In this document: positions 7,073 through 60,552 of the stretch, piece by piece
How positions within the stretch are numbered: position 1 is the stretch's first letter
Layout of the letters: every line of letters begins with the position of its first letter
DNA from: a virus
Length of the DNA: 60,552 nucleotides
IMG/VR virus record: IMGVR_UViG_3300029267_000655
Location: 1-60,552 of that record
Strand: one strand, 5' to 3'
Translations under genes and position numbers: made by a program
The notes under the pieces: generated by a model
What the model saw: only the letters and a program-made list of their open reading frames with translations
Databases searched by the model: none
Told to the model about the DNA's origin: nothing

Positions 7073-7088
7073 TGTGTGTAACAGTACA

Positions 7089-7130: not shown

Positions 7131-7317
7131 CGTTTACAGACGTTCGAGAAGCCCCTAAATTCGCTCTCTACGGGCTTCTGACGTAAAATCCGACCGAAAC
7201 CCCGTATTTTCTGCTAGCGGACGTTCTAGGGGCATATACGGACGCCTGAGAGGGTCTGTAGCCGATCTGAGGGGTAGGGAGCGAAGATACTACCAGTACA
7301 GACCGACTACAGACCGC
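7131..7317. other. Convergent intergenic region
   Basis: No gene on either strand. AGAAGCCC and GGGCTTCT form an 8-bp inverted repeat near 7148-7178 with a 15-base loop but no U-tract, so it may act as a weak end point for the leftward operon. Direct TACAGAC repeats lie at about 7297-7313. Confidence 0.35.
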
Positions 7318-8217: not shown

Positions 8218-8232
8218 AGCGGTTACCTCTCG

Positions 8233-8883: not shown

Positions 8884-8885
8884 GA

Positions 8886-11134: not shown

Positions 11135-11144
11135 GGGCCTACTC

Positions 11145-13222: not shown

Positions 13223-13231
13223 TGTCTTAAC

Positions 13232-13696
13232 CTAGTTGGGTATGGCGTAGAATTCAGCTCGACTGTTAGACGAAGACTTGACTATCAAGTGTTGGACGAT
13301 CACGGGACTAGGGCAGGTTAGAACAAAGAACTCGCCTGGAGCTATATCGTCTGAGATTTGTGTGGGTGTTTTGAGGTTAGTACCTAGCTGAATCGAATCT
13401 TTACCTGTATTGACTAACACTATAGCACTTAATCCTAGACCGTGTAGCCAAGAAGTACTAATCGAAGTCCAACCGCTATCTACTCTGAGTGACCTATAGT
13501 AAGTCTGCTCGTCGTGTTCTAGTTCCCTGCTGAAGTGCTCTCTGAGAGAAGTGGGTCTAGCTGATGGAGTGACGTGATAGAGCTGAAGTAGAACTGAAAG
13601 ACGTTTAGTGTTGGGTATGTCTTGCTGTGCCTGAAGTTTGAGATCAATTAATTTAGGATCAGTTTCTGGTACCGGTGTAGGTTGGTTGCTAGGCAT
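13232..13696 (-). CDS. Hypothetical tail protein, 154 aa
   Basis: ATG at 13696 with GGAGCGACC just upstream. The product is Pro-rich at the N-terminus, helical in the middle (RLSVLLQLYHVTP) and beta-rich at the end (SAIVLVNTGKDSIQLG, FFVLTCPSPVIVQHL). Its position between baseplate-type genes implies a virion component. Family unknown. Confidence 0.6.
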   Translation of the reverse strand: MPSNQPTPVPETDPKLIDLKLQAQQDIPNTKRLSVLLQLYHVTPSARPTSLREHFSRELEHDEQTYYRSLRVDSGWTSISTSWLHGLGLSAIVLVNTGKDSIQLGTNLKTPTQISDDIAPGEFFVLTCPSPVIVQHLIVKSSSNSRAEFYAIPN

Positions 13697-23711: not shown

Positions 23712-25500
23712 TGACTTTACCCTCTCCTGATAAGAGTAGTTGGTAGGCTTGTTCAATCATGCGGATCGTTGAAGCCTTATTAGGATACTGTTGGGATACG
23801 AGTCTCTGAGCTTCTCGCATTCTTGCTAAACCATCGTCAGCCTGAACCTCTTGATAGGTTACTACCTGCTCACGGTTTCTTAGACTGTTGACCTGTGTTT
23901 GTAAGCCTTCGATCTTGCTCACAAGTCCTAGTCTCTCTGTGTGCCAGCTTGCTCTCTCTTTGTCTAGCAGACTACGGAACGGGTTATCTGTCGTAGGTGT
24001 CGAACTACCGGACACTCTAGGAGAGCCGCGAGAATCGGCTGTAAAGCTCTCTGCTGCATTAGATGGGTATTCGGGCGGGTTAGACGTTCGAGACGCTCTA
24101 GAGCCGAAAATACGCCTTCCTACACGCATCCCTAGGGGTACGTACCACGGCAAACCGCCTGTAAGTGCTCCTAGTCCTACGAGTAGAGCGGTTTTCCCTA
24201 CCCCACCGGTGATTCCTGAGAAGAAGCCTTCCGACTCAGACCCATCCTTCTGTTTGTTATCGGGCACCGCTGAACCCGTAGAAGGATGCTCAGGAGCAGT
24301 CTGAGCCGGAAGGGTTGTAGTAGTCTTCTCTTCCTGATCTTCTTCGGGTTTGGTGTATTCGTTAGTGCTAGTCTCTCGCTTCTCAATAGTCTGCCAACGG
24401 CTAGGTTCGTTCTTCTCTTCAATAGGTAGAGGAGCGTCTAGACTATTGTCGTCAGGCTTAATCTCTACCGGTAAGTCTTTAGGTGGGGGTGGAGCTGTAC
24501 GGTACTTTAGAAGTTCTTCGCAGTCTCTCTTGAACTTACTGTCACTAGAGTAGCCAGCAAAGAAGTTACCCGGTTCAAGTACAGCAAACGGAATCGAGGT
24601 CACTTTGTACTTAGCTCGAAGACCGTAGACTGCTGGGTCTGGTTCGGGGTAGTTAGTCGCGGGGTTGATCCTCTCCGTATTAACCCACTTCACAATGAAC
24701 CGGTCTTTCAACCACTGTCTAAACTCACGGTCTGTATTCCACTCGTGAACTAATCTCTTACAAGGCAGACACGTATATGAGTGGAAGATAGTCAACACAG
24801 GCTTGGACGTGGTGTTACTAGCTACATACTCAAAGGTCTCTGTGTCTGCTGCTATGTGAAGGTACTGAGTATGAAAGAATACTGATTGCCAATCTTCGTT
24901 ACTACCTTCAGCTTGGTGAATTGAAACTCTACTGTCACTACTTAGTCCTGGTGTTCCTTCGGGTAAGTTTGAAGCAAAGCAGATTCCTAAGACGTTGTAC
25001 TTCTCATCAAACAAAGGTCCACCGCTATAACCCGGTTTGGCTACGTCTCTGACTCCTATACACCAATACTCTGAACCCTTAGGACCGTAAGCCAATCGGC
25101 TAGTCTCTGCTGTAGCTGATACATAGGTGACTTTTGAGTTGAATTTGTTACTAGGGTATCCCGCAAACCAAACCTTAGAACCAATCTTAGGTGACTCGCT
25201 AGCGATACCCATGTAGTCATCAAACTTACCGTCTAACTGTAGAGAGACTACCGAAGGTTTGTTGCCGTAAGGTTTGTTCTTGATCCTGGCTTGGTACTTC
25301 TTACCTTTGACTGTAACGGTGATTGGTTCACTAGGTACTACGTGGAATGCAGTTAAGACTACACCGTCTGGAGTAACGATAACCCCTGAGCCTTGAGAGC
25401 TAGGACTATCAATCTTGACTACCGCATCAATCTTCCGACCTAAAGCTGTTGAGCATAGAGACAGGATAATAATAAGAGTTGTGATTGACTTCGTAACCAC
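23704..25500 (-). CDS. Secreted trypsin-like protease fused to a thioredoxin-like domain
   Basis: 598 residues. A signal peptide (about 1-21, TTLIIILSLCSTALG) is followed by an S1-type protease fold with VVLTAFHVV (His53) and KPGYSGGPLF (Ser159). At the usual Asp position (DLALL in relatives) this protein reads SVVSLQL, so the triad may be incomplete. Residues about 232-325 form a thioredoxin-like domain with SYTCLPCKRL (Cys244 and Cys247) and a cis-Pro region SIPFAV. Then come a Pro/Glu/Lys linker, a Gly-rich hydrophobic segment (about 425-455) and a C-terminal coiled coil. It should act outside the cytoplasm, perhaps on surface proteins. Confidence 0.85.
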   Translation of the reverse strand: MVTKSITTLIIILSLCSTALGRKIDAVVKIDSPSSQGSGVIVTPDGVVLTAFHVVPSEPITVTVKGKKYQARIKNKPYGNKPSVVSLQLDGKFDDYMGIASESPKIGSKVWFAGYPSNKFNSKVTYVSATAETSRLAYGPKGSEYWCIGVRDVAKPGYSGGPLFDEKYNVLGICFASNLPEGTPGLSSDSRVSIHQAEGSNEDWQSVFFHTQYLHIAADTETFEYVASNTTSKPVLTIFHSYTCLPCKRLVHEWNTDREFRQWLKDRFIVKWVNTERINPATNYPEPDPAVYGLRAKYKVTSIPFAVLEPGNFFAGYSSDSKFKRDCEELLKYRTAPPPPKDLPVEIKPDDNSLDAPLPIEEKNEPSRWQTIEKRETSTNEYTKPEEDQEEKTTTTLPAQTAPEHPSTGSAVPDNKQKDGSESEGFFSGITGGVGKTALLVGLGALTGGLPWYVPLGMRVGRRIFGSRASRTSNPPEYPSNAAESFTADSRGSPRVSGSSTPTTDNPFRSLLDKERASWHTERLGLVSKIEGLQTQVNSLRNREQVVTYQEVQADDGLARMREAQRLVSQQYPNKASTIRMIEQAYQLLLSGEGKVNA

Positions 25501-41774: not shown

Positions 41775-42416
41775 CTATTGTAACCGACGTAGCAACTCTG
41801 CTTGAGCTTCGTCTATTCTCTGTAGTGCTCTAGGTTGATCCTGACCCATAGCAAAGCACTTAACCATCTCACGAGCCAAGTTAAAACCGATTCCTACAAT
41901 ACCTACCAAATCAACATTATCAGGTTGGTTCTCTTGGTCTTCCGGTGGCTCAGCAAAACCCGACAAGTTGACGCTATAGCTCGAAGGAGCGGGAATACAA
42001 CTGTCAACAACTCTAGCTTCTTCTTGTCGGTTTCGGTTCTCCTCTCTAGCAGACTCTTCACAGAACTTGTCTGGGTATCTAGTTCTAAGCTTTTCGATGT
42101 TAGCTGCCATAACGAAACCGAAGTCAAGTTGTATAGCATTACAGATAAGAGCTAGATACCAGCAACAGTCTCCTACCTCTTCTTTGATGTTTGTTTCGTC
42201 TAATCCTTGACCGTAGTACAACCACTTCTCTAGTTCAGAAGCTAGCTCTCCCACCTCACCAGTCAAACCTAACACACCGTGAATAAGTCTAATAGACGCT
42301 AACTCAGGCCAACCTGTAGTAAGCTCATTAGAGCAATCAATCAACCTATTTAGTGATCGTCTTTGGTCGCATTCTGTCCTAGACGCTGACACTTGGTACT
42401 TGCTCGGATTGATCAT
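41775..42416 (-). CDS. MazG-like nucleotide pyrophosphohydrolase with C-terminal extension
   Basis: 213 residues. VLGLTGEVGELASELEKW and EEVGDCCWYLALICNAIQ are the EExxE and ExxD metal-binding helices of MazG/all-alpha NTP pyrophosphatases. Residues after about 125 are a Pro/Glu-rich extension with a final helical hairpin. It may remove unwanted dNTPs or alarmones. In a phage with modified thymidine it could help clear dTTP or dUTP. Confidence 0.82.
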   Translation of the reverse strand: MINPSKYQVSASRTECDQRRSLNRLIDCSNELTTGWPELASIRLIHGVLGLTGEVGELASELEKWLYYGQGLDETNIKEEVGDCCWYLALICNAIQLDFGFVMAANIEKLRTRYPDKFCEESAREENRNRQEEARVVDSCIPAPSSYSVNLSGFAEPPEDQENQPDNVDLVGIVGIGFNLAREMVKCFAMGQDQPRALQRIDEAQAELLRRLQ

Positions 42417-42419
42417 TGT

Positions 42420-42977
42420 TCAATAGTTCCTTACTTCCCAAAACACGGTATTGAATCCGGGTAGCGTTCCCCACTTAATGCTAAACGTAGAGAACTCCAC
42501 AACATGACCAGGATATTTACTCAATAACTCTTGTAGCCAGTCGTAAGACTTAGGGCACAGACTTCGACGTAACAGCATTACAGCTTCAATCCCGTAGACT
42601 TGCCTACCATCTAGAGCTAGTGCGTCTCTCATAGGTAAACCGACTGCACTAGAGTAGAACAAACCTAAGCCTACAGGAGTCTGCTGAACTTCTCCTTGCA
42701 GCAAGTTACGTTCATGAGGAGCCATAGCACTGATGTAGAACTCATCGAGTCTACCCGCTCTCCTCAGTCTGTTGGCTACTCCTACTGATTCTAGTCTTCC
42801 GATGTTGTAGTATGTATCTCCTCCTCTTTTCCGGTTTCTAAAGTGAACCTTACCAAAGTACTTAGCTGACTTATACTCTTCGTAGTTATCCCAAGTCAGG
42901 CTAGCGTTACCAAACAACCCTTGTTTGTAGTACTTAACGAACTGAGCTTTGTTGTTGATAGGTCCGTTAGGTAACAC
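42420..42977 (-). CDS. Hypothetical protein in nucleotide metabolism cluster, 185 aa
   Basis: GTG start overlapping the thymidylate synthase gene by 11 bases. The product contains NKAQFVKYYKQGLFGNASL, HFRNRKRGGDTYYNIGRLE and VEFSTFSIKWGTLPGFNTVFW. I do not recognise the family. Coupling to the synthase and MazG genes suggests a role in nucleotide or base-modification chemistry. Confidence 0.6.
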   Translation of the reverse strand: MLPNGPINNKAQFVKYYKQGLFGNASLTWDNYEEYKSAKYFGKVHFRNRKRGGDTYYNIGRLESVGVANRLRRAGRLDEFYISAMAPHERNLLQGEVQQTPVGLGLFYSSAVGLPMRDALALDGRQVYGIEAVMLLRRSLCPKSYDWLQELLSKYPGHVVEFSTFSIKWGTLPGFNTVFWEVRNY

Positions 42978-44073
42978 GGGTAGCTTCCCGTCTTAGAATC
43001 CACTCGCTAGCAGCCATCTTCCAAAACGAGTCTTCAATATCGTTAGTAGCATCAATAGCTTTGATAGTGTCTCTTTCTTTGTAGTAGTAGTGGGCACGCA
43101 TCATAGGAGAAGCCACTTTACTAATGAACTCACTTTGACCTTCCCATCTACTAGTATCTCCTCTGTATTGAGGAGCGATAGTAGTGAAATCCGTGCAGAT
43201 CGGTCTATGTACGTCGAAAGGTACTCTAGCTCCATTCTCTGTTAGACTCTTGTTGATACTGATGTAGTTATCAGCGTGTCTAATGTATCCTTCGGGGTTC
43301 CATCTACTAGTGTAGACGTGAAGGTTATTGGTGAATTGATTGTATCTACCGATAGGAACATTCACCATCCTAGCTACGTATTCCTGAAGGAAAGAGAAGT
43401 GAACGACGTTCGCACCTAACATTCCCCAGATTAGATCATTGCTGCGGTTGCAGACAGTCATGTCCAGCTTACCGTCGTTGATTAGAAAGTAAGCATGAGT
43501 GTTACAGGGTACGTCTTTACCACCGTTCATAGCGTTGTGAAGGTCTCTCTTACCTACAGGACCTTCAGGGGTAATCCAGTTCGTAGAGTCCCACATCTGT
43601 AGAACACACCTACGACTATCCGGGTTGTCTTTCAATTCTTCACTAATAGCGAGAATCTGATCAAACCCAAACTGATTCCTCCACCTCTTACCGTAAGCAC
43701 CGTGTAGAGTCTTACCGTCATCGGAGTATCTACCGAAGTCCTTGATGTAATAAAGCAGAGGCTCTAAGTCGTCGCTACCGGACAACATCCAAAGAGTCTC
43801 GAACACATGGAAGAACGGGTTGCAGTCTCTAATAGGATTCAACAGGACTCTATTGGTAGGGTCTGTGAATGTGATATTGACTGGTACCAAGAGTTGGATA
43901 ACGTCTCCATCCCTACTATTACGTCTAGTCATCAACCTGTCTTCGTACGAGTATTCTTCAGTTCGAGTCTCGTACCTGTAAAAACCTAAGACTAAATCTT
44001 TGAATGCACTCTCCACACTAGAGTGCTCGAATCCAAAGCCTTCATTCATCCTACTCAGTCTTTCGTTAACCAC
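42967..44073 (-). CDS. Thymidylate synthase family enzyme (ThyA or dUMP hydroxymethylase)
   Basis: About 368 residues. Preferred start is the GTG at 44073, with GGAG seven bases upstream; a GTG at 44088 is also in frame. VPCNTHAYFLINDGKLDMTV carries the catalytic Cys. VCNRSNDLIWGMLGANVVHFSFL matches the dUMP-binding region with the Asn kept at the position that separates dUMP from dCMP enzymes. YNQFTNNLHVY is the C-terminal binding segment. It uses methylene-tetrahydrofolate to make either dTMP or 5-hydroxymethyl-dUMP. The nearby hypermodification cluster makes the hydroxymethylase role attractive, but sequence alone does not decide. Confidence 0.85.
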   Translation of the reverse strand: MVNERLSRMNEGFGFEHSSVESAFKDLVLGFYRYETRTEEYSYEDRLMTRRNSRDGDVIQLLVPVNITFTDPTNRVLLNPIRDCNPFFHVFETLWMLSGSDDLEPLLYYIKDFGRYSDDGKTLHGAYGKRWRNQFGFDQILAISEELKDNPDSRRCVLQMWDSTNWITPEGPVGKRDLHNAMNGGKDVPCNTHAYFLINDGKLDMTVCNRSNDLIWGMLGANVVHFSFLQEYVARMVNVPIGRYNQFTNNLHVYTSRWNPEGYIRHADNYISINKSLTENGARVPFDVHRPICTDFTTIAPQYRGDTSRWEGQSEFISKVASPMMRAHYYYKERDTIKAIDATNDIEDSFWKMAASEWILRREATRVT

Positions 44074-44087
44074 AGTACGTCTCCACA

Positions 44088-44633
44088 CTAGAAAGGAAGA
44101 TGACTTAGAGGGTAGTTGCTGTAGCGATACATAGAGTTCCCAACCGTAGGAAACACGTAAGACCTACCACCACACAACTCGAACTTGTCGCAGTTAGTAT
44201 CGCTATCGTCTATTAGTATTGTAGTAGGTTTAGCAAGTAGCTCCTTATGAGGTGTTAGCATGAACCGATCAAATTTTTTACCGAACATAGACTTGATCCA
44301 TCGAACCTTACCTGAGTGACTTGTGTGGCATCGACTAGGTGAAGATACGATGTACCACCTATTGCCTACGAACGACTCTACCCGCTCAATCAGTTCCTCG
44401 AAGTAGTTAGTCGGCAGTAACTCGAACCAGAAACTCTCTCCGGCTTCGTGTATCGGTTTCCAAAACTCGTCTAGAGAGCAACCCAACACGTCTGGTAGAT
44501 GCCAGTTCCCAGGATGATCCCGTAACCACACCTCGTCTAGCATCTCTCTGTCTATGTCTATCAGCTTGCAGTACCCTCCAACGAAGTCGGCCAGAACCCC
44601 ATCAAGGTCCAGAAACACGGTGAAATCAGTCAA
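44088..44633 (-). CDS. HAD-family 5'(3')-deoxyribonucleotidase
   Basis: 181 residues from a TTG start with GGAGGA upstream. VFLDLDGVLADF is HAD motif I with the two Asp typical of cytosolic deoxyribonucleotidases (NT5C type). WYIVSSPSRC is motif II, and TTILIDDSDTNCDKF holds the motif III/IV acid pair. It probably dephosphorylates a deoxynucleoside monophosphate, perhaps dTMP or dUMP, to shape the pool for modified bases. It overlaps the synthase region. Confidence 0.82.
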   Translation of the reverse strand: MTDFTVFLDLDGVLADFVGGYCKLIDIDREMLDEVWLRDHPGNWHLPDVLGCSLDEFWKPIHEAGESFWFELLPTNYFEELIERVESFVGNRWYIVSSPSRCHTSHSGKVRWIKSMFGKKFDRFMLTPHKELLAKPTTILIDDSDTNCDKFELCGGRSYVFPTVGNSMYRYSNYPLSHLPF

Positions 44634-44775: not shown

Positions 44776-45177
44776 ATGCCTACCGCAACCCCGAAGAAGA
44801 AGACCGTCAAGAAGTCCTCTGCTAGCAAGACGGCTACCCCGAAGAAGAAGGCAGCAGCAAAGAAGACGACTACGAAGAAGAAGGCAGCAGCAAAGAAGGT
44901 AGCTACAAACAGTAGCGGAAGTAAGTTGGGTAAGCCTTTGATGGCTATTCTCGAAGTACTCAAAAAGGGTAAGTCACTTACCCGCTCTGAAATCTCTGCG
45001 GCTACAGGTATCAAGTCGGGTTTCACCTCATACCTAGGCCAAACAGACCCGGAGAAACGGGAAGAGGGAAGCCTCCTGGCACGTAAGCTTATCAAGATCG
45101 AGAAACACGATAGGGATGGTAAAGACGTGTTGGTTTACTCTATCACAGCTACAGGTAAGAAAGCAATATCAAGCTGA
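44776..45177 (+). CDS. Histone H1-like Lys/Ala-rich protein with C-terminal winged-helix-like domain
   Basis: 133 residues, ATG at 44776 after GAAAGGACC. The first 48 residues are KKK/AAAKK/TTK repeats (MPTATPKKKTVKKSS...) typical of bacterial histone-H1-like DNA-compacting proteins. The rest (LMAILEVLKKGKSLTRSEI, AATGIKSGFTSYLG, then DVLVYSITATGKKAISS) resembles a small winged helix. It is the only plus-strand gene in the leftward half and has its own terminator. It may compact DNA or regulate transcription. Confidence 0.82.
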   Translation: MPTATPKKKTVKKSSASKTATPKKKAAAKKTTTKKKAAAKKVATNSSGSKLGKPLMAILEVLKKGKSLTRSEISAATGIKSGFTSYLGQTDPEKREEGSLLARKLIKIEKHDRDGKDVLVYSITATGKKAISS

Positions 45178-45196: not shown

Positions 45197-45235
45197 AACC
45201 CCACTAGAGCTACTTTGTTCTAGTGGGGTTTTTTC
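45197..45235 (+). terminator. Intrinsic terminator after the histone-like gene
   Basis: AACCCCACTAGA (45197-45208) pairs perfectly with TCTAGTGGGGTT (45219-45230), followed by TTTT. The left end of the aldo/keto reductase gene on the other strand overlaps this hairpin. Confidence 0.9.
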
Positions 45236-46071
45236 GTCAATTCTGCTATGTGGTCTGGATTGTTAGTACCTACGAGTGGTATATCTACCCACCTAGAAGC
45301 TTCCGTAAACGCCTCTGATGCCGTTTTGCGTAGCCTCCCCTGGTCTAGTGTGCTATGCCCTAGTGTCAGCATTCCTACTGATTTGCAGTATGGCAATATA
45401 GACTCACAAGCTCCCAGGTCATTCGAGTTTAACCGGACTTGTACCGACGACAGGTCATAGCCGAGAGACATCAGGCACCGTCTAACCGCTGTTATCTGAC
45501 CTAGAGAGTGGTTGGATACTCCTACGTGAAGAACCGTTCCGTTGTCTAACAGTTCTGCCAGTCCTTCGCAAGTTTGCTCCACCGAAGGTCCGCCTTCGTA
45601 GTTGGGCCAATGTATCTGGTACAAGAAGATAGAAGACACTTTCAGTCTATCTCTAGACCGTAGACCAGCATTGATTACAGCAGACTTGGACATATGGTTT
45701 CTTGCCACCTTTGTAGCAATCTTTGCTTTACATCCGGTTCTGCTGTAGATTTTACCTAGCTCTGTCTCTACTTTTCCATACCCATAACTTTCTGCGGTAT
45801 CAATCAAAACTAGACCTGATTCAGTTACTTGATTGATTACGTCTTCATTGTATTTCCACTTATAAGAACCCCAACCCAGTCTATGTTTTGCTCCACCTAT
45901 TACTTCGTCTCTTATGCGGTGGTTTTTACTGACTTTCTTGTCTACAGTTAGTATAGTCCCTCTATCTTGATTACTAAGTTGCTGATTCCAATTGTCATAG
46001 TCTTCAAGTCTTCCTCTACACTTGTTAGACCACATCAGTCCTCTAAGTCGGTCTCTAGCTATACTGTTCAT
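45220..46071 (-). CDS. Aldo/keto reductase in the hypermodification cluster
   Basis: 283 residues. The complete catalytic tetrad is visible: Asp91 and Tyr96 in LIDTAESYGYGK, Lys121 in IATKV, His154 in YQIHWPN. GVSNHSLGQITAVRRCL and the C-terminal LVGTNNPDHIAEL fit NADPH binding. An N-terminal extension of about 60 residues precedes the barrel. It overlaps the FAD gene by ATGA and is the last gene of the coupled set. It probably reduces an aldehyde or imine intermediate of base modification. I do not recall such a member in described thymidine hypermodification pathways. Confidence 0.85.
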   Translation of the reverse strand: MNSIARDRLRGLMWSNKCRGRLEDYDNWNQQLSNQDRGTILTVDKKVSKNHRIRDEVIGGAKHRLGWGSYKWKYNEDVINQVTESGLVLIDTAESYGYGKVETELGKIYSRTGCKAKIATKVARNHMSKSAVINAGLRSRDRLKVSSIFLYQIHWPNYEGGPSVEQTCEGLAELLDNGTVLHVGVSNHSLGQITAVRRCLMSLGYDLSSVQVRLNSNDLGACESILPYCKSVGMLTLGHSTLDQGRLRKTASEAFTEASRWVDIPLVGTNNPDHIAELTKKPH

Positions 46072-46994
46072 AGAATGATCTCCAACACCTTGTCTGCAAC
46101 AAGCTTAGATAGACCTAGACCTAATCTATGTCCACCGGTGGCAACTACGATTCTGGAACTTACTTTATCGACCAAGAACCTATCTAGGACTGGTCTATAG
46201 CCTGTCTGTATCTTAACTGATTTGGGACTAGCTACTACAGTGTCCATAACCGTTCTTAGGTTTTTCAGTTTGTTGGGGCTTTCGACTTTCTCTGCTGTAT
46301 CTCCTACTTTGAGTCTTCCTTTTGTCCAAACCCTAACCGTGTGTTTTACATAGGGTTTTATCATTACTGATACTGGAAGTTCGGTAGTTGGCTTACCTTT
46401 ACAAGTTATACCTCTACCCAACAACTTACCAACACCTATCGGACTCATTCTACATACTTCGGTAAGTACAGAATCGGTTCTATACCCCGTCGCTAGTAAT
46501 ACAGACTTTGACTTAACAACAAACTCCTCTCCATTATCTATATTAGTGTAGAAAGTCTCTACGTAGTTCTGATGTTCTTCTATGTTCGACACTCTTCCTA
46601 CCCGCCTGATGTCGTTTACTTGGTCGGTAAGTGTCTCTGGTTCCGGTAAGTAGATTACTTTGCTTCTAGGTCTTATAGGTCTGTCTTGGTACATATTCCA
46701 AAAGTACTCAAGAACTTCATAGCCACCCACCGTCTTTAGCCAATCTATTGATTCACCTAACTTACTTCTGTCTAGGTTTTGAGGCCAGTACTTCGAGAAA
46801 ATGTCAGAAGAGTAAGCTCCAGGATCGCAAACAGCCGAAGCATTTCTACTTCCTGATTGTTTGTCTCCATCATCTATTATACAGCAGCTAATTCCTTTAG
46901 ACCTAGCTACATTAGCAGTAGCACTTCCCCAATAACCCGATCCCACTATCGTTAGGTCTATTGTCTTGTTTCCTACGGATTTTCTCGTCACCAT
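46068..46994 (-). CDS. FAD-dependent oxidoreductase (DAO/glycine oxidase-like)
   Basis: 308 residues. DLTIVGSGYWGSATANVA is the dinucleotide-binding GxGxxG at residues 18-23. SKSVLLATGYRTDSV is the second FAD segment, and VVATGGHRLGLGLS the C-terminal FAD motif. The size is short for ThiO-like enzymes but complete at both ends. In phage thymidine-modification pathways described by the Weigele group, FAD enzymes act on glycyl-thymidine. This one is placed to do similar chemistry on DNA. It overlaps neighbours on both sides. Confidence 0.82.
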   Translation of the reverse strand: MVTRKSVGNKTIDLTIVGSGYWGSATANVARSKGISCCIIDDGDKQSGSRNASAVCDPGAYSSDIFSKYWPQNLDRSKLGESIDWLKTVGGYEVLEYFWNMYQDRPIRPRSKVIYLPEPETLTDQVNDIRRVGRVSNIEEHQNYVETFYTNIDNGEEFVVKSKSVLLATGYRTDSVLTEVCRMSPIGVGKLLGRGITCKGKPTTELPVSVMIKPYVKHTVRVWTKGRLKVGDTAEKVESPNKLKNLRTVMDTVVASPKSVKIQTGYRPVLDRFLVDKVSSRIVVATGGHRLGLGLSKLVADKVLEIIL

Positions 46995-47779
46995 AGCTTT
47001 CCTCTCTTTCCTGCTCTGTATAGTTGTTGAGCTAGCCTAACACGACCGAATCTAGCAAGACTCTTTCTCAAAGCTTCTACGTCTTCTCCTACTTCGTAGT
47101 GACCGTTGAGATGACTCTTCCACTTACATAGAATCGTCTCAGCCTCTTGCGGTCCTAACGGTCTATCGAACGTAGGTGGAGCTAGGTAGCCGTCTAAACT
47201 CTCTAGAATATGCTCCGTAGCCCATCTATTTCGCTCTCTAACGTCCTCTGTTGCTTCGGATGGGTTTCGATACCTATCCTGAGCTAGAGACGCTCCTACC
47301 TTCGGAGAATCGAATAGGAACACGTCTTCTACCGGAAAGACTACCGGAACACCTAGAACTCTCTCTAGCATGTCGGCTACCTTGAATGAGATCCAAGGTC
47401 CGAACCCTACCCAACGCTGAACGTGTAGCATCACCTCAGTAGATTGAATAGGTTTCTTAACGTCTATCGGTTTGAATAAACCGTCTAAACCTACATCACT
47501 CAGGTAGTTAACAGACTTGGTAGCGTTATCTCCCCTGAAGTGTCTACGCTCAGGACACCTAGGGTACTTCTTAGACTTAGCCGCAGTCATCATAGCGTTC
47601 CAGTAGTCTTTCTTATACGTTATCCAACTGGCAGTACCGCTATGATAAAAACACCAGTAAGCTAGTAACCACTTCCGTAGTTGTACCTTACTCATGTTTG
47701 AGTTAATCAACACCGTATAGACTGGGTCTAAGTCTTCGTTGTCTAGGAGAGACTTACCAAACTCAATCAGTTCTAGCAT
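46988..47779 (-). CDS. Alpha-glutamyl/putrescinyl thymine pyrophosphorylase clade 2-like protein
   Basis: 263 residues. LRKWLLAYWCFYHSGTASWI, the ERRHFRGDNATKSVNYL segment and WVGFGPWISFKVADMLERVL match my memory of the aGPT-PPlase clade 2 family. That helical fold was predicted by Iyer and colleagues to replace the (pyro)phosphate on 5-hydroxymethyl-uracil in DNA with an amine or amino acid. The first genes of such pathways (kinase, second transferase-like protein) are immediately upstream, which strongly supports the call. Confidence 0.78.
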   Translation of the reverse strand: MLELIEFGKSLLDNEDLDPVYTVLINSNMSKVQLRKWLLAYWCFYHSGTASWITYKKDYWNAMMTAAKSKKYPRCPERRHFRGDNATKSVNYLSDVGLDGLFKPIDVKKPIQSTEVMLHVQRWVGFGPWISFKVADMLERVLGVPVVFPVEDVFLFDSPKVGASLAQDRYRNPSEATEDVRERNRWATEHILESLDGYLAPPTFDRPLGPQEAETILCKWKSHLNGHYEVGEDVEALRKSLARFGRVRLAQQLYRAGKRGKLW

Positions 47780-49163
47780 CTTGGACAGGCACCTTTAACT
47801 CGACAAGACGTAATGCTCGACCTTCACCAGCAATAACGTCACCACACCTAGGTTGTCCTGGGTCATCTTCGTTTTCGCTTGCACAATACAAACAACCCGA
47901 AGGTGGGCATTCGTCTACTTCTCGGAATAGTTCATCTGGATTGTCCCTAGTAAATACCGGAACACGCTGCCCGTGGCACTGGTCTGCCGTAGTGTATTCC
48001 CTACCGATACTGACTCCTGTCTTGCTAGTTATGTTTCCTTGTTCGTCTCTTTCGTAACGATACTCGTAGCAAGTGGCGTAGGTTAGTCCGTACCGTTTGG
48101 CGTATTTACTATACATCTCATGGGCTTTTAGTCTGTACTCTTCTTCTACACACCTTTGTCCGCCCATGTTGTCGGTAAACAACTCCTTAAACTTCTCTCC
48201 TCTTTCTCCAAACCTCTTAACCATCCTCTCTTCCATACTGTTAGCCCAAGAGTAACCCGCTTCGACAAACTTAACGATGACGTGGTCTGCTCCTGCCTCA
48301 GCTAGCCTCTTGAATAGCTTAATGATGTCAGCATGAGAGGTTACACCCGGAATAATTGGATTGACTTGAATAGAGACATACACACCTTTGTTCTTGATCC
48401 TTGTGATGTCTTTTAGATGTCCTTTCAAGCTAAGTGCTCCGGGGGAAAGCCTACGAAAGTCCTCTGGAACTGATGTGTTGATAGACTTCTGAGCGTAGCT
48501 ATAGGGATTCTGGGTCATAAGGTCGATAGCCCATTTAGGGTATCTCAACCGACTAAGAAAGAAGATAGGCAAACCAACCTTCACAAACTCTTCAGCAGCG
48601 TATTGGGTGTTATGATAGATACTCTCCAAAGGTAGAAACGGATCAGTAAATGATGAGAAGTAACCCGCTGCTCCACGTCTGACTTTACGTAGCTGTTTCC
48701 TGATCTGTTCTCCGTAGTCCATAGGGACAGTGATAAGTCCGGTGCCACGATAGCCTCTGAACCCGGAGTTAACGTAACAGAAAGCACAACCAACAACACA
48801 CCAACCACCGTAAGGTTCAGTTAGTATAGCTTCAGTGAAACACGGTCTAGGTCTAACATTGTCTGGTTCGTGTAGACCTTTGTACCAACCTTGTAGCTGC
48901 TTTGCTTTATCTATCCGAGTATGTGGGTATGGTTCTAAATAGGCTCTGACTTCCTTCTTGTCTTCGTCTTTAGCGTTTCTGACCATACCCACCCGAACGT
49001 CTCTGACCTTAACTTTACGTCCGAAAACTTCATCATAGACTGTTTTGATTTCAGAAAGATTCTCCCTAGGTTCTGGACGCATGAAATAGTTGTAGACGGT
49101 ATTGGCTGTGTGTTCGTCTTCACCTACAGATTGAGTTGTGATCCAGCTTTGTTCTTGGTCCAT
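47763..49163 (-). CDS. Radical SAM enzyme, probable modified-thymidine remodelling
   Basis: 466 residues. WCVVGCAFCYVNSG holds the CX3CX2C cluster (Cys122, Cys126, Cys129) for the 4Fe-4S/SAM centre, as in spore photoproduct lyase-type enzymes that act on thymine. The barrel continues with GAAGYFSSFTDPFLPLE and VSIQVNPIIPGVTSHADI. A C-terminal Cys cluster (CPPSGCLYCAS, then RCGD) may bind zinc or a second cluster. It starts on the stop of the kinase gene (TAATG). Radical SAM enzymes in related phage clusters isomerise or rearrange amino-acid adducts of thymidine. Confidence 0.85.
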   Translation of the reverse strand: MDQEQSWITTQSVGEDEHTANTVYNYFMRPEPRENLSEIKTVYDEVFGRKVKVRDVRVGMVRNAKDEDKKEVRAYLEPYPHTRIDKAKQLQGWYKGLHEPDNVRPRPCFTEAILTEPYGGWCVVGCAFCYVNSGFRGYRGTGLITVPMDYGEQIRKQLRKVRRGAAGYFSSFTDPFLPLESIYHNTQYAAEEFVKVGLPIFFLSRLRYPKWAIDLMTQNPYSYAQKSINTSVPEDFRRLSPGALSLKGHLKDITRIKNKGVYVSIQVNPIIPGVTSHADIIKLFKRLAEAGADHVIVKFVEAGYSWANSMEERMVKRFGERGEKFKELFTDNMGGQRCVEEEYRLKAHEMYSKYAKRYGLTYATCYEYRYERDEQGNITSKTGVSIGREYTTADQCHGQRVPVFTRDNPDELFREVDECPPSGCLYCASENEDDPGQPRCGDVIAGEGRALRLVELKVPVQDARTD

Positions 49164-49720
49164 TAGGTAACCTCACTCAGAATAGAACTAGAAATTTTAA
49201 CAACCTGCTTGAAACTTAAAACCCGACAATAGACACCATTCTGTCTTAATCGGGTTCTGGCTCGTTCTATAAGCTTGACCCTTTTTATTGTGTTGTGTGT
49301 ATTTAGGGGTTTGTCGTTACCTGCGTCTAGTCTTCTTTGTTTTACCTGTTCAATACATTTATCTGTATCGGTATTAAGAAATAGAACCCTAACATCGTGA
49401 CCTATCTCTTTTAGTTCTGTGGTCCACTTGACGTCTTGACTAAGAAGTAAACCCTCACACAATACCAGGTCTACATTGTTGGGGCTTAGTGACTGAACCC
49501 TCTGTATAAGGTCAAACACTGATCTAGCTGAACCTACATTGTCACATCCTCCGCAAGTTGACTCATAGTGACCTAAAATACAGACGGACCCACTATAGTA
49601 TCCAATCGGTTTTCTACGTCCTTCTTCAATTATAGGTACTAAGTCTAGACCCCCTATTATCTCTCTCATAGCTGTAGTCTTTCCACTACCGCTAGTTCCT
49701 CTTATCTGAAGTATCAACAA
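49163..49720 (-). CDS. 5-hydroxymethyl-dU DNA kinase-like P-loop protein
   Basis: 185 residues from a TTG start with AAGGAG upstream. LQIRGTSGSGKTTAM (P-loop, residues 8-16), then VCILGHYESTCGGCDNVGSA and VDLVLCEGLLLS are the marks of the phage 5-hmdU DNA kinase family, which phosphorylates the hydroxymethyl group on polymerised DNA. In many phages this domain is fused to the helical HMUDK domain. Here the two are separate adjacent genes with a seven-base overlap. Confidence 0.85.
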   Translation of the reverse strand: MLILQIRGTSGSGKTTAMREIIGGLDLVPIIEEGRRKPIGYYSGSVCILGHYESTCGGCDNVGSARSVFDLIQRVQSLSPNNVDLVLCEGLLLSQDVKWTTELKEIGHDVRVLFLNTDTDKCIEQVKQRRLDAGNDKPLNTHNTIKRVKLIERARTRLRQNGVYCRVLSFKQVVKISSSILSEVT

Positions 49721-50577
49721 CCTACAAACTCCTTGTACTTAGACTTCGGTCTTCTACCATCAAAGAGTGTCCTTTCATACTTATCGAACTCACACAAACA
49801 GTTCTGGTAGTCTATTGCTTCGAGTCGTTTTGAAATACTTCTAGGTATTAGAGACTTGGTGTATTCTAGTACGTCGGTACCAAACCAATGATTAAACTCT
49901 GTTTGGCTCATAGGTGATTTTATGTCTCTACCTAACAACCTATTCATTCCTCTTCGACTACCCGGACCAATAGCAGCCCACCTCAACCTATCCTTAAACA
50001 CCACCGAAGTGGCCCACCTAAGATCAGCAGCTACTTGACCCGACATAAAAGAACCCATATTCCAATAATTCGATAGCGACTCAACCAATCTCTCTAATCT
50101 GTTATGAATCACTAATGGGTTATCTACAAACTGCTGGCAGTTTACTTTGATTACCATTTCAGACTTATCTGGCCAACCTTTAGATGCTCTTATAATATAG
50201 GCTCCGTTGAACACCGGAGCACTACTTTGTTCGGTTTTGTACTTCTCGATTCTAGCTAGGATTCTTTTAGGCTCCCACCGTGTAGGGAACCCGATAGCAT
50301 CTAGAGTAGATGGTTGATTAAAGTGACGAGCCAATACACAAGCCAACACTATGTTCTTGTGATCTTTGTAGGGTTCATACCAATTCTTGAGAAGCCACTG
50401 ACTAACTCTATCGTCCATCCTACGGACATTACAGAATCGGTACGTATTAAGAATCTCGTCATCGGTCCAAGGTCTAGGCTCACCGGCTTCCTTCTTCAGT
50501 CGGATACTCTCCCTCTCAGTGATCCAATAGACTAACCTCTCAAACGGGTCTAGCTTCTTAACGTCTTCTATGTTCAT
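49714..50577 (-). CDS. HMUDK helical/aGPT-PPlase clade 1-like protein
   Basis: 287 residues. FERLVYWITERESIRLKKEA, EILNTYRFCNVRRMDDRVSQ, then GSFMSGQVAADLRWA, IGPGSRRGMNRLLG and NCLCEFDKYERTLF match the helical domain found beside or fused to 5-hmdU DNA kinases. The RFCNVRR and GPGSRRG stretches are its most conserved parts. It probably acts directly on kinase product or positions DNA. ATG overlaps the polymerase stop (ATGA), so polymerase and modification genes are translated together. Confidence 0.83.
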   Translation of the reverse strand: MNIEDVKKLDPFERLVYWITERESIRLKKEAGEPRPWTDDEILNTYRFCNVRRMDDRVSQWLLKNWYEPYKDHKNIVLACVLARHFNQPSTLDAIGFPTRWEPKRILARIEKYKTEQSSAPVFNGAYIIRASKGWPDKSEMVIKVNCQQFVDNPLVIHNRLERLVESLSNYWNMGSFMSGQVAADLRWATSVVFKDRLRWAAIGPGSRRGMNRLLGRDIKSPMSQTEFNHWFGTDVLEYTKSLIPRSISKRLEAIDYQNCLCEFDKYERTLFDGRRPKSKYKEFVGC

Positions 50578-52616
50578 AGACCTAATCCTTCTGCCCAGTT
50601 GTGTTCGTGGTACTCACAGCTTACCGGAGTAGGAATACCGAAGTCATCTCCACCTAGTTCCATGATCTTCATCACTTCTTTCATGATCGGTAGATTAGTC
50701 TTCCAAGGTTCAGTACCGCTACCCTTAGGAAAGTCAAACACAAGCTCATCGTGAACCTGCATCACCATATAGTAGCCTCTTGATCCTTTCTTACGGTTAA
50801 GGTCGTCTAACATCTCTTGAACTCTAACCATAGCCTTACACATCCACCACATAGCCGAACCTTGAACGTGGTAGTTAAGAGGAATCGTAGGCTTAACTCC
50901 ACCCCACCTAGTACGAGTACAGTAAAGAGGGTAGCCACGTTCTGGGTCTACTGTGCGGTCTGGAATCGTCTCTACGTAACCGTACCGATTGGCGAAGTCT
51001 ACCCACTTCTGATTTAGCTTAGCTTTCTCTGTAAGACGATCAGCGATGATCTTCTGTGCTCCGGGTACATGGTAGGCTCTATCTGCTGTCCCTGTACCGT
51101 CTTCTTTAGCTACTGCCCCGTATTGGTCAGCAAAGTTACCATTCTTAGTCCACTGGTACCAAGTGCTAGCATACTCCTTCTTACAGTCTGCTCCGTGCTT
51201 CTTAAACTTGTCGGGGTGAAGAATAGAGAAGATCAGAATGTGGTAACTGCCGTAATAGGGTGGTTCGTCCGGCTTCTCGAATATCTCAATCATCGCAGGT
51301 TCACCGCTCTCGTAGGCAGGTAACCTAAGCTCTATGTTCTTGGCATCACAACTCCACCACTCTCTACCTAGTGCTGGACCGAAGCCTTGACGTAAGTTGA
51401 AACCCTCCTTCTTGCTGATGTTCTGTTCGTTAGGGTTGCTGCTAGACCAACGAGTAGTGGCTGTACCGGTAGGGTTAAGACTAGGGTGAAGAACTACCCA
51501 AGGTCCGTTAGGTCTTCTGAGAGGAAGCCAGAACCGCTCATAACTCTCCATGTAGCTAAGTGCTGTGTCTCGCTTGCGTTTGTTTCCTAGAGCACGAACA
51601 AAGTCTAGCTGTGGACTAGGATCATCCAACGTAAACTCGTAGACGCTCAACACGTCTTTGTTGAGTAGGGGTAACCCGGTCTTAGGAGACTTAGCAACTA
51701 CCGGAAGACCTATGTGCTCGAAGCAAGCTGACTGAAGTGACTTGTTACTACCGCTCTTAGGCATAGAGAGTTCAGCACCATACATGCCCGCGATAGTGCA
51801 GCAGATGCGTTCAGCTTCTTCGCTCTGATCTCTATACTCATTAGTGAGTGCTCTAAACCTACTACGGTTAGCTGTGATACCTTTAGACTCCATACCGTAG
51901 ACGACTCTAGGAATCTTACACCTCTCTTCGTAGATGTGGTCTAATCCCTTCTCCTTAATCAACTCCATGTGCCGTTCATATATCTTGACCGTACACTGGC
52001 TGTCCATATTAGCGTAGTCACTAAGAACATCCCACCAAGGATGATCACTAGGGTAGTCCTCTTTTTGAGCGACAAGCCTAGGAAGCCAAGTGTCGTTTTT
52101 CCATACTTTGTCCTTAGCACTAGGTAATTGAGGAAGACCTTTCTTGGCTATTAACCAATCAGGTCTGTTGTGCTTAGCCCAATCCCTAGCCTGCTTACAT
52201 GCTGTCTCTAAGTCGTTGTCATACGGTTTGACATTAACACCTAGATAGACTAGAGCCAGTGTTGTAAGGTCTTTGGGTTGGTTAGACGCAAGCAAGTGAG
52301 CCGATATAAGAGTGTCCCTAACCCTAGACCAATCAAGGTTCGGTACAAAGTCCCCATCAAACAAGTAGTCTAGAGCAGCTATATCAAACTTAGCATTCTG
52401 AAACACTAACAGTTCAGCAGACTCTAACTTGTCCCAAACGTCTTCTAAGTCTGACTCAGCTACTTCAGGCTTACGAGTGTAGGGGTCTACGTACCACTCC
52501 CAGTAGTCTTGAGACTTATCTATCACACTTGTGCTAGTCGTTACTGCGAATGCCCTACAACCATGCTTTAAGTCGATTCCTGTCGTCTCTGTATCTACTG
52601 CAAGAATGCTAGTCAT
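50574..52616 (-). CDS. Family A DNA polymerase with 3'-5' exonuclease
   Basis: About 680 residues. The ATG at 52616 has GGAGGAAGG upstream, and the protein begins MTSILAVDTETTG, the Exo I motif; an in-frame start ten codons earlier is less likely. Exo II lies in LVFQNAKFDIAALDYL and Exo III in SDYANMDSQCTV. Motif A is WSCDAKNIELRLPAY (Ala-Lys instead of the common Tyr-Ser), motif B region is TKNGNFADQYGA, and motif C is MVMQVHDELVFDF. It is the replicative polymerase. Motif A and B variants may relate to use of modified dNTPs, which is speculation. Confidence 0.9.
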   Translation of the reverse strand: MTSILAVDTETTGIDLKHGCRAFAVTTSTSVIDKSQDYWEWYVDPYTRKPEVAESDLEDVWDKLESAELLVFQNAKFDIAALDYLFDGDFVPNLDWSRVRDTLISAHLLASNQPKDLTTLALVYLGVNVKPYDNDLETACKQARDWAKHNRPDWLIAKKGLPQLPSAKDKVWKNDTWLPRLVAQKEDYPSDHPWWDVLSDYANMDSQCTVKIYERHMELIKEKGLDHIYEERCKIPRVVYGMESKGITANRSRFRALTNEYRDQSEEAERICCTIAGMYGAELSMPKSGSNKSLQSACFEHIGLPVVAKSPKTGLPLLNKDVLSVYEFTLDDPSPQLDFVRALGNKRKRDTALSYMESYERFWLPLRRPNGPWVVLHPSLNPTGTATTRWSSSNPNEQNISKKEGFNLRQGFGPALGREWWSCDAKNIELRLPAYESGEPAMIEIFEKPDEPPYYGSYHILIFSILHPDKFKKHGADCKKEYASTWYQWTKNGNFADQYGAVAKEDGTGTADRAYHVPGAQKIIADRLTEKAKLNQKWVDFANRYGYVETIPDRTVDPERGYPLYCTRTRWGGVKPTIPLNYHVQGSAMWWMCKAMVRVQEMLDDLNRKKGSRGYYMVMQVHDELVFDFPKGSGTEPWKTNLPIMKEVMKIMELGGDDFGIPTPVSCEYHEHNWAEGLGL

Positions 52617-53211
52617 AGCCTGTATGTGCCTTCCTCCACTCGTCAAACGAATTGTAGAGCGGTTTGTACTCTTTCATTGTACCGTCTACTTCAACTACTA
52701 ACCGCCAATCTCCCCATTCTGCTGTCGGTCCTTCGTAGGGTTGTTTGGCTCTTAGTCCGGCTGTGTGTAGTACAGAGTCTCCGTGCTCTATCACTGCCCG
52801 ATACTTAGCGTGAGTGATCTTGCCTTCTTCTCTTAGTGCTTCGAGTCTACCGCTGTGAACGTAGTTATGACACAAGTGACAGAGCGGAACAGTCTCTACG
52901 TAGTAGTGTCTACCAAGCAGATAATCTGTCTCGTAGACTTCGTGTCCTTCTAGCCACTGTCTGTACCTAGCTTTGAGTTTATGCACACCGCAAGCTAGAC
53001 AGTGATAGTAGTTGGATTTGTAGGACTCTTTCCTAGTCTTATCCCACCAACTCTGTCCTAACACAACTCGTGGAGCTAGACCGTGCATAGGCTTCGGAAT
53101 GTTAGGACACAGAAGTAGCTCAGGCTTTCTCTTAACTAGCGTCTCTTTTCTTCGGCTACGTTTCTGTTCCTTAATCAACTTCCTTGTCACTGCACTCCGT
53201 TTCTTAGCCAT
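52609..53211 (-). CDS. HNH-type endonuclease-like protein
   Basis: About 200 residues; ATG at 53211 preferred over the TTG at 53214, with AAAGG upstream. A very basic N-terminus precedes LLCPNIP and YYHCLACGVHK. GHEVYETDYLLGR and VPLCHLCHNYVHSG then form the beta-beta-metal HNH core with surrounding Cys pairs for structural zinc. Its place just before the polymerase gene could mean a free-standing homing endonuclease or a replication nuclease. Confidence 0.75.
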   Translation of the reverse strand: MAKKRSAVTRKLIKEQKRSRRKETLVKRKPELLLCPNIPKPMHGLAPRVVLGQSWWDKTRKESYKSNYYHCLACGVHKLKARYRQWLEGHEVYETDYLLGRHYYVETVPLCHLCHNYVHSGRLEALREEGKITHAKYRAVIEHGDSVLHTAGLRAKQPYEGPTAEWGDWRLVVEVDGTMKEYKPLYNSFDEWRKAHTGYD

Positions 53212-53688: not shown

Positions 53689-53734
53689 CATTGCTCTGAC
53701 CGCCATCACAACCTCTCTCAGCAGTAGTAGTAGT

Positions 53735-53806
53735 GCTCCGGGTAGGACTCGAACCTACAACCAAGACATTATGAGTATCCTGCTCTAACCTTTGAGCTAC
53801 CGGAGC
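53735..53806 (-). tRNA. tRNA with anticodon CAT (Met, or Ile2 if lysidine-modified)
   Basis: 72 bases. Acceptor GCTCCGG pairs with CCGGAGC, D stem GCTC/GAGC, anticodon loop CTCATAA, T arm GTAGG-TTCGAGT-CCTAC. The first base pair is G-C, so it is not an initiator. No CCA is encoded. Confidence 0.9.
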
Positions 53807-53813
53807 TAAGTAG

Positions 53814-53887
53814 TACTCCCATCAGGACTCGAACCTGAAACCTACGGTTTAGAAGACCGTTGCTCTATCCTATTGAGCTATGGGAGC
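53814..53887 (-). tRNA. tRNA-Arg, anticodon TCT
   Basis: 74 bases. Acceptor GCTCCCA pairs with TGGGAGT (one G-T pair), anticodon stem ACGGT/ACCGT with loop CTTCTAA, T arm CAGG-TTCGAGT-CCTG region intact. It would read AGA and AGG codons, which are frequent in this phage's coding strands. Confidence 0.9.
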
Positions 53888-53891
53888 CTAG

Positions 53892-53973
53892 TGGTCGTGG
53901 AGGGACTCGAACCCTCATGCCCGAAGGCACTAGAACCTAAATCTAGCGTGTCTGCCAATTTCACCACACGACC
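53892..53973 (-). tRNA. tRNA-Leu, anticodon TAG
   Basis: 82 bases with the long variable arm of class II tRNAs (TGCCTTCGGGCA hairpin). Acceptor GGTCGTG pairs with CACGACC; anticodon stem CTAGA/TCTAG with loop TTTAGGT. It would read CTA and other CTN codons. CTA is very common in this phage (CTAG-rich sequence). Confidence 0.9.
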
Positions 53974-57453: not shown

Positions 57454-58020
57454 CTAGAAAGGGCAGCTAACCTCTTCAAATAAGTCCGAGAGCTGAACTA
57501 TCTGTTGCTGTATAGCTAGTCCTCTCTGACTGATGTCAGCTCTGAGAATAGCCGCAGGGTGTACAATCTCTACCGATGCTGTGTCCCTATACCACTCGTC
57601 GTCTTTGACAATCTTAGGCAACCACTTAGCAGCTAGCTTACCCACACAAACGAACGCACAAGGCTTAGCTACTCTAATGAACTCTAAGAGTCTTTCGGAG
57701 CAGGCTTGAATATGTTCCTTATGAGGTTCGTTGATCTTGTTACCGCCTAGCTCATCTTTAGGTATGCAACAGACCAAGTTAGTAAACGCTAGACGTACTT
57801 CACTCCCTCCAGCTTGTTCGATGGTAACGTCTAGTAACTTACCAGCAGGTCCAACAAATGGTTTACCTAGCACGTCTTCCGATTGACCCGGAGCTTCTCC
57901 GATAAACAACACGTCACAAGGTAGCTTACCTCTAGCTAGCACTGTCTTTCTTCGTACGTCACACAATTCACACTCAGTACAGTCTATCCACCGTTTCTTG
58001 AATGTAGTGTACTTTGACAT
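57454..58020 (-). CDS. Family 4 uracil-DNA glycosylase
   Basis: 188 residues. FIGEAPGQSEDVLGKPFVGPAGKLLD is split between the uracil-binding motifs (GEAPGQ and PFVGPAG), and VEIVHPAAILR carries motif 2 His. Four Cys (DCTECELCD, plus LVCC and QACSER region) fit the 4Fe-4S cluster of family 4. It removes uracil from DNA. A phage whose DNA may carry 5-hydroxymethyl-uracil intermediates must avoid self-damage or use it on dU-containing DNA. Confidence 0.87.
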   Translation of the reverse strand: MSKYTTFKKRWIDCTECELCDVRRKTVLARGKLPCDVLFIGEAPGQSEDVLGKPFVGPAGKLLDVTIEQAGGSEVRLAFTNLVCCIPKDELGGNKINEPHKEHIQACSERLLEFIRVAKPCAFVCVGKLAAKWLPKIVKDDEWYRDTASVEIVHPAAILRADISQRGLAIQQQIVQLSDLFEEVSCPF

Positions 58021-60147: not shown

Positions 60148-60552
60148 CGCATTCTTTACAAATTGCATCCGTGCAACCATGTGATGCCTTTCGGTGTTCG
60201 CGGTTGAGCCTAGTTCTACATGCCGCCAACCTAACCAGAAGCTCCCTGCAAGCATCGGCAAGATCAATAACCGTCTGATGGCAGCTCTCTCCTGATTCAA
60301 CCCACTCTGGCGTAATGCGCCGCAACGCTTCGTGCACCTCACGATCCTGACCGTCGCAAAATACTGTCATCTCCACCCCGTCGCGTATCTCAACCCGAGT
60401 ACCAATTGACGGATAACAAGGCGTTGCACGGGAGCCGCCGGCAACGCGGGTTTTGAAATCAATGTCGTTCACGGTGCCGCCGTGAACTTGGCCGTTATGC
60501 CTCAAACTTGGGCAGGCGGTCCCCCACTCAACACCCGGTTTAAGTCTGACCC
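60140..60552 (-). CDS. Cassette ORF A, 3' part of the gene that crosses the joint
   Basis: In the circular molecule this frame is fused to the phage ORF starting at 337. Inside the window it reads through the repeat (NGQVHGGTVNDIDFKTRVAG) and continues IRDGVEMTVFCDGQDREVHE to a Cys-containing end (TDAICKECDG). Without the fusion, the cassette gene would start at a GTG or ATG near 60372-60390 and encode about 80 residues. The TAA stop is part of the GGATAAC of copy B. Function unknown. Confidence 0.55.
   Translation of the reverse strand, partial: VRLKPGVEWGTACPSLRHNGQVHGGTVNDIDFKTRVAGGSRATPCYPSIGTRVEIRDGVEMTVFCDGQDREVHEALRRITPEWVESGESCHQTVIDLADACRELLVRLAACRTRLNREHRKASHGCTDAICKECDG
60409..60552. 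repeat. 144-bp terminal direct repeat identical to 1-144
   Basis: The last 144 bases equal the first 144 bases exactly. This shows a circular or circularly permuted genome cut at an arbitrary point, or a short terminal redundancy. Because the ends fall inside a coding frame and a structured repeat rather than beside the terminase genes, an assembly overlap is more likely than a true phage terminus. Confidence 0.9.

Follow-up and report, generated by a model that had tools for sequence, protein, structure and literature searches.

An M6-type thymidine-hypermodification operon with a FAD enzyme and an aldo/keto reductase in place of the PLP enzyme

Described pathways and the present operon

The closest described systems build amino-acid adducts of thymidine. 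In the work of Lee et al. of 2018 and 2022, an amino acid is reportedly placed onto phosphorylated 5-hydroxymethyl-dU (5-hmdU), a radical SAM enzyme (rSAM) converts the N-linked glycine into a C-linked one, and a PLP enzyme decarboxylates the product; the assignments of glycine, isomerase and decarboxylase for phage M6 are said to come from Lee et al. in NAR in 2022. M6 is a Pseudomonas phage (Yuavirus) whose pathway to 5-(2-aminoethyl)-dU comprises gp51-gp55 and gp58, and the same gene set is given for M6-like phages in the SN1 announcement (PMC9476957). The operon described here lies in the IMG/VR virus record IMGVR_UViG_3300029267_000655, the whole of which (60,552 nucleotides) is called the window. 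Like M6, the window virus has HMUDK_hel (HEL), a kinase (KIN), rSAM, an amino acid:DNA transferase (ADDT) and a predicted dUMP hydroxymethylase, and the general scheme of the two pathways is alike, but where M6 has the PLP enzyme gp52 the window virus has a FAD enzyme together with an aldo/keto reductase (AKR). The two also differ in gene order and in that M6 has an HD protein where the window virus has an NT5C protein.

Pseudomonas phage PaMx11, with ADDT (gp46), an N-alpha-GlyT FAD lyase (NGTO, gp47) and an acetyltransferase (gp48), resembles the window virus in its ADDT, DAO-fold FAD enzyme, kinase, HEL and hydroxymethylase. Unlike the window virus, it has neither rSAM nor AKR, and its FAD enzyme is only about 20% identical to that of the window, belongs to another clade and differs in motif residues. 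Cassettes of the order Tet/JBP-ADDT-FAD-Ploopntkinase3 are found in Microbacterium phage Kozie and at two IMG/VR loci, L173 and L174. Their FAD enzymes are related to the window subtype, but 5-hmdU would be made there within DNA by the Tet/JBP oxygenase, and rSAM, AKR and the PLP enzyme are all absent. Two IMG/VR loci, L012 and L003, are syntenic with the window virus, having the order Pol-HEL-KIN-rSAM-ADDT and a block formed by a thymidylate-synthase (TS)-fold gene and a conserved unknown gene. In both, a PLP enzyme occupies the slot that holds FAD and AKR in the window, and L003 has in addition a GT-like protein and an amidoligase.

The core of the window operon is thus of a known kind, the M6-type (rSAM) thymidine-hypermodification operon. 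What is unusual is the presence of FAD and AKR instead of the PLP enzyme in such a system; neither this nor the M6-type nature of the operon was part of the original prediction made from the sequence. The final chemistry of the operon is probably new. A literature search, whose reach did not extend to Lee 2018 PNAS, Lee 2022 NAR and Iyer 2013, returned no mention of glycinylthymidine and, when directed at AKR with hypermodification, no AKR term.

Operon core and entry block

Six minus-strand ORFs at 45220-50577 follow directly on the gene of a family A DNA polymerase (50574-52646, minus strand; PF00476, E 3e-28), which heads the overlapping run. As the original prediction had described, the genes overlap end to start, by 1-17 nt: 4 nt for Pol/HEL, 7 for HEL/kinase, 1 for kinase/rSAM, 17 for rSAM/ADDT, 7 for ADDT/FAD and 4 for FAD/AKR. 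Between AKR and a convergent plus-strand gene (44776-45177) lies an intrinsic-terminator hairpin (45198-45229; -21.5 kcal/mol, z -6.2) with a perfect 10-bp stem and T-runs on either strand, the sole such hairpin in the window. Its position directly behind AKR indicates that AKR is the final gene of the operon.

All six identities proposed for these genes were borne out by profile comparison (PF18723 for HEL, phrog_9252 for rSAM, PF18724 for ADDT, PF01266 for FAD, PF00248 for AKR, and a profile-profile match for the kinase). HEL (49714-50577, 287 aa), an aGPT-PPlase1-type helical partner of 5-hmdU DNA kinase, matches PF18723 with an E value of 6e-48 and is 30.5% identical to M6 gp55, itself a PF18723 protein (8e-56). 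The P-loop 5-hmdU DNA kinase-like protein (49163-49720, 185 aa, Walker A GTSGSGKT) matches phrog_800 at 1e-16. Its identity would be doubtful by Pfam alone, where HMUDK_HMUD1 is matched at E 0.038 (M6 gp54 matches it at 8e-18), and was settled by hhalign against a profile of the M6, PaMx11, Sonora and RHph kinases (probability 99.9, E 3e-36). The rSAM enzyme (47763-49163, 466 aa; phrog_9252, 6e-191) is an ortholog of M6 gp53, with 57.5% identity over 98% of the length and up to 75% identity to IMG/VR relatives; its CX3CX2C motif at C122 is invariant. We infer that its substrate is an N-linked glycinyl adduct and its product a C-linked amino acid. ADDT (aGPT-PPlase2; 46988-47779, 263 aa; PF18724 8e-16, phrog_6364 6e-57) is 37% identical to M6 gp51 and 39% to the PaMx11 protein, and by homology would transfer an amino acid onto phosphorylated 5-hmdU. 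The prediction of a hypermodified thymidine in the virion DNA is likewise supported.

The pathway had been called complete with these six genes. The six-gene set stands, but completeness requires a further gene that had been left out, the predicted dUMP hydroxymethylase gene at 42967-44088. It belongs to an entry block that starts within about 1.1 kb beyond AKR and consists of four minus-strand genes, for an NT5C-type nucleotidase, the TS-fold protein, a conserved unknown protein and MazG. The TS-fold protein (PF00303, phrog_5131) has the same PCN and GAN motifs at its active site as M6 gp58, PaMx11 gp51 and L003, and has Asn at the uracil-recognition position, where the CMP enzyme MilA has Asp; it is therefore predicted to be an M6-gp58-like hydroxymethylase of dUMP, not dCMP, that would form 5-hmdUMP. 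The NT5C-type 5'-deoxynucleotidase (44088-44633; PF06941), possibly a dTMP phosphatase, is encoded next to TS in several relatives as well; at that place near TS, an HD-domain protein is encoded in M6 and PaMx11. On the other side of TS, the window lineage encodes a conserved 185-aa protein (42420-42977) that gave no match in Pfam, PHROG or NCBIfam and has homologues in L003 (43%), L012, L016, L092 and L105. The last gene encodes a MazG-type NTP pyrophosphohydrolase (41775-42416; PF03819, 1e-9) with a possible role in pool control.

The suggestion of a planctomycete host was not supported. Even with such a host, the proposed extension to a new host phylum would not be a clean novelty, because a contig binned into a MAG of the planctomycete Thermogutta has an ordinary M6-like rSAM+PLP cassette. 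This contig may be a binning error. The portal gene was matched neither in any of 294 genomes from the phylum of the Thermogutta MAG nor in any of 296 from a comparison phylum, and the terminase likewise had no match in three MAGs; neither gives a host signal either way.

FAD and AKR in the slot of the PLP enzyme

The last two genes of the operon encode a DAO-type FAD enzyme (46068-46994, minus strand, 308 aa; PF01266, 3e-12), the proposed oxidase of a C-linked amino acid, and AKR (45220-46071, minus strand, 283 aa; PF00248, 5e-28), the proposed carbonyl reductase acting after it. AKR scores 98.5 bits against the (beta/alpha)8 profile PF00248 (cut-off 24), and its tetrad D91, Y96, K121 and H154 is intact.

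To place this pair, we scanned for rSAM and ADDT with alignments, which recovered about 150 loci on roughly 107 distinct contigs. Alignment-based scans were needed, as single-sequence scans of viral contigs gave no match for FAD, and those for AKR picked up nothing but a distant member of the family on a 548-kb contig. Local profiles then sorted the loci into those with rSAM and PLP, those with FAD but no rSAM, and those with rSAM, FAD and AKR. The last combination occurs in exactly three records: the window, L071 (a 67-kb contig) and L040 (a 30-kb contig). Another 24 records have FAD with neither rSAM nor AKR, 45 have rSAM and PLP, 14 have rSAM alone (several of them truncated, and three with PALP, the PLP enzyme fold, elsewhere), and none has rSAM and FAD without AKR. 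Pfam searches of whole records agree with this sorting. AKR (PF00248) was found in 3/94 records, exactly those with rSAM and FAD, and in 0/24 FAD records without rSAM and 0/59 other rSAM records; DAO was found in 3/50 (49 of them rSAM-bearing), again only these three. Among FAD records, the association of AKR with rSAM has a Fisher p of 3e-4, which serves only as a guide because the records are related. The tetrad is invariant in the three AKRs, which also have in common a phage- or family-specific N-terminal extension; in 2000 shuffles, none matched the similarity of the extensions of L040 and the window or of L040 and L071 (0/2000 each), and the direct comparison of the window and L071 was not significant. 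A structure prediction of AKR from the three sequences was poor (pLDDT 65).

PALP was not found in the whole records of the window, L040 and L071, and was present in 43/45 other rSAM records. This observation bears on the possibility that the operon is a plain M6-type one, in which the PLP step is provided by a distant or host enzyme and FAD and AKR serve other metabolism. Some rSAM records, such as L025 and L027, do have no detectable PLP enzyme. However, the window record has a direct repeat of 144 bp at its ends and is thus probably complete, which gives weight to the absence of a gene from it, and the FAD and AKR genes overlap operon genes by 7 and 4 nt and lie ahead of the terminator. That the PLP enzyme was replaced at this slot three times independently also speaks against this explanation, which we regard as highly improbable.

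These replacements are seen when the rSAM tree (built with a fast method) is read together with gene order. The window rSAM stands beside that of the PLP-bearing L012 (support 97), L040 beside the PLP-bearing L112 (support 100), and L071 within the PLP-bearing L065, L074 and L076 (support 100). At the slot in question, the window reads rSAM-ADDT-FAD-AKR and L012 rSAM-ADDT-PLP; L040 reads ADDT-AKR-FAD-rSAM and L112 ADDT-PLP-rSAM; and L071 reads ADDT-AKR-FAD-rSAM-KIN-HEL-TS, compared with ADDT-PLP-rSAM-KIN-HEL-TS in L065 and L076. Because FAD and AKR hold the slot of the PLP enzyme at three places that lie apart in the rSAM tree and all have PLP-bearing neighbors, three independent swaps are indicated. 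The FAD enzymes are of two subtypes, so that the pair appears to have been assembled more than once, with AKR as the common member. The case comprises three loci (n = 3), all metagenomic, and since the L040 contig stops about 0.5 kb after rSAM, a PLP gene of L040 could lie beyond its end.

Proposed ending of the pathway

By homology, the dUMP hydroxymethylase would supply 5-hmdU for DNA, the kinase and HEL would phosphorylate it within DNA, ADDT would put an amino acid, most probably glycine, in the place of the phosphate to give N-alpha-glycinyl-dT, and rSAM would rearrange this into the C-linked alpha-amino acid C-alpha-glycinyl-dT. In the M6 branch, the PLP enzyme would decarboxylate the latter to 5-(2-aminoethyl)-dU. 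Because FAD and AKR repeatedly take the slot of the PLP enzyme, and only where rSAM is kept, they most likely act on the same substrate, the rSAM product. We infer that in the window virus the FAD enzyme would oxidatively deaminate C-alpha-glycinyl-dT, leaving a 2-keto acid on DNA for AKR to reduce to a stable 2-hydroxy acid, 5-(2-carboxy-2-hydroxyethyl)-dU (C12H16N2O8, [M+H]+ 317.098); with loss of CO2 as well, the base would be 5-(2-hydroxyethyl)-dU ([M+H]+ 273.108). A post-replicative operon with this alternative ending, in which FAD oxidation and then AKR reduction take over in the absence of the PLP enzyme, is on balance probable.

The type of linkage would explain the distribution of the pair. 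With a C-linked amino acid, oxidation by a DAO-family enzyme would give a keto acid whose carbonyl stays on the base, and AKR would turn it into an alcohol. With an N-linked adduct of the PaMx11 type, oxidation would free glyoxylate and leave an amine, so that no carbonyl would remain on DNA and AKR would not be needed; none was found in the corresponding records. The retention of rSAM in the three records and its absence from the 24 FAD records without AKR are what would be expected if a carbonyl remains on the base only when the adduct is C-C-bonded. The intact AKR tetrad, the common N-terminal extension and the presence of glycine, sarcosine and other amino acid oxidases among the DAO-fold relatives of the FAD model also favor oxidation followed by reduction.

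The structure of the FAD enzyme points in part to different chemistry. The best solved fold for its AF2 model (pLDDT 88), a DAO fold of about 285 aa as in the PaMx11-type lyase (NGTO), is PDB 8z79 (Z 29.5, rmsd 2.4 over 272 residues), which, like 8z2o, is PaMx11 gp47, solved as an 'N-alpha-GlyT FAD-dependent lyase' and hence from the N-linked branch. In the FAD tree, whose long branches make its depth uncertain, the L071 enzyme nests inside the lyase clade, and the window enzyme groups with L040 and Kozie (support 100/100) outside it; enzymes of the window subtype also occur without rSAM in the Tet/JBP cassettes of Kozie, L173 and L174. The fold match and the occurrence in Tet/JBP cassettes weaken the oxidation/reduction reading and, with the position of the L071 enzyme, make its main rival a lyase reaction as in PaMx11, which would yield 5-aminomethyl-dU and glyoxylate, either alongside the rSAM branch or in its stead, and leave AKR to handle a side product such as glyoxylate or a formyl base. 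Yet the 24 FAD records without rSAM have no AKR, indicating that a lyase needs none, and rSAM, which would be pointless with a lyase, is kept in all three records. The enzyme that FAD and AKR have thrice replaced is, moreover, one that acts downstream of rSAM. The window enzyme also has IKPYVK, GDTAE and GGHRLG in place of WAPYxQ, GDG(T/S) and GGAKNG, motifs that we defined from the alignment and that most lyase-type proteins carry. We therefore consider the lyase reaction unlikely. The FAD subtype was itself tried as a marker of the substrate and rejected, because the window subtype is also found without rSAM and L071 uses the other subtype.

The same distribution, tree and slot evidence would suit a pair that oxidizes and then reduces the C-alpha center through an imine, inverting or editing it, so that the final base would be C-alpha-GlyT or its stereoisomer; the missing decarboxylase would be accounted for as well. 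Imine reduction by AKRs is rare, however, and such inversion or editing is improbable.

Under the preferred oxidation/reduction reading, flavin oxidation and AKR reduction on DNA would be a third way to finish amino-acid thymidine adducts, leading to a hydroxy-acid or hydroxyethyl deoxyuridine and evolved at least three times by replacement of the PLP decarboxylase in the same slot, a broader proposal that we put forward as plausible but tentative. If it is true, the DNA would contain a base that we have not found described. It would end in oxygen instead of an amine and be anionic or neutral instead of cationic, with a predicted exact mass. The rSAM product would be a branch point at which one set of enzymes can take the place of another, and both members of the pair, the flavin oxidase and the aldo/keto reductase, would act on DNA, which would be useful for modified-DNA chemistry and for understanding the escape of phages from restriction.

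Genome ends and accessory genes

The window carries an exact direct terminal repeat of 144 bp (positions 1-144 and 60409-60552), which indicates that the record is probably a complete genome. Three consecutive tRNA genes, Met(CAT), Arg(TCT), and Leu(TAG), are located on the minus strand at 53733-53973. A fused trypsin-like peptidase and thioredoxin-like domain is encoded amid the structural genes (23704-25500, minus strand), and two glycosyltransferase-like genes lie close to the tail genes on the same strand (7318-8217 and 8886-9935), the products of which could decorate the virion or the DNA.

The 742-residue product of the plus-strand gene at 633-2861 contains a pyrimidine-dimer glycosylase domain (PF03013, 7e-11) and far exceeds this domain in length. 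A virus predicted to swap thymidine precursors for hmdU also encodes a uracil-DNA glycosylase superfamily protein (57454-58020, minus strand; PF03167, 3e-21), which may remove dU from the viral DNA.

Genes beside the modification operon

A convergent gene, the product of which resembles a winged helix at its C-terminus, is flanked by the modification operon on one side and by the block encoding the NT5C-type nucleotidase and the TS-fold protein on the other. It was identified in the window (44776-45177, plus strand) and on the minus strand of two relatives, L003 (12695-13099) and L005 (7233-7520), and in the window and L003 copies a Lys/Ala-rich, histone-H1-like tail precedes the C-terminus. 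These two relatives, which have the radical SAM and PLP enzymes, contain extra genes for an amidoligase (PF12224), a glycosyltransferase-like protein, or a glutathione-synthetase-type ATP-grasp protein (L003 10875-12643; L005 3632-5528 and 6271-7191), with additional decoration of the aminoethyl group as their probable function. Public names are misleading for two of the pathway enzymes: the radical SAM protein (M6 gp53, PHROG 9252) is called "DNA repair photolyase" and the 5-hmdU kinase (M6 gp54, PHROG 800) "terminase small subunit".

Possible alternative entries and endings, and cassette exchange

Tet/JBP-ADDT-FAD-kinase cassettes were found in L007 (1-3273), L173 (8287-11451), and L174 (7289-11714), where a DNA oxygenase, not a dUMP hydroxymethylase, would start thymidine hypermodification. 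Two contigs of jumbo-phage size, L025 (248 kb) and L027 (266 kb), carry a radical SAM gene and a weak ADDT match, with PALP, DAO, and AKR absent throughout both, and possibly represent a further alternative ending. In the relative L095, HEL, kinase, ADDT, and TS are present (6681-12767); no radical SAM, FAD, or PLP enzyme was detected, and their slots are occupied by a methyltransferase-like gene and unknown genes. L092, which is syntenic with the window virus, has the order HEL-KIN-FAD-ADDT (7692-13400), with an FAD enzyme occupying the position of the radical SAM enzyme. This arrangement represents an exchange of cassettes inside a single lineage.
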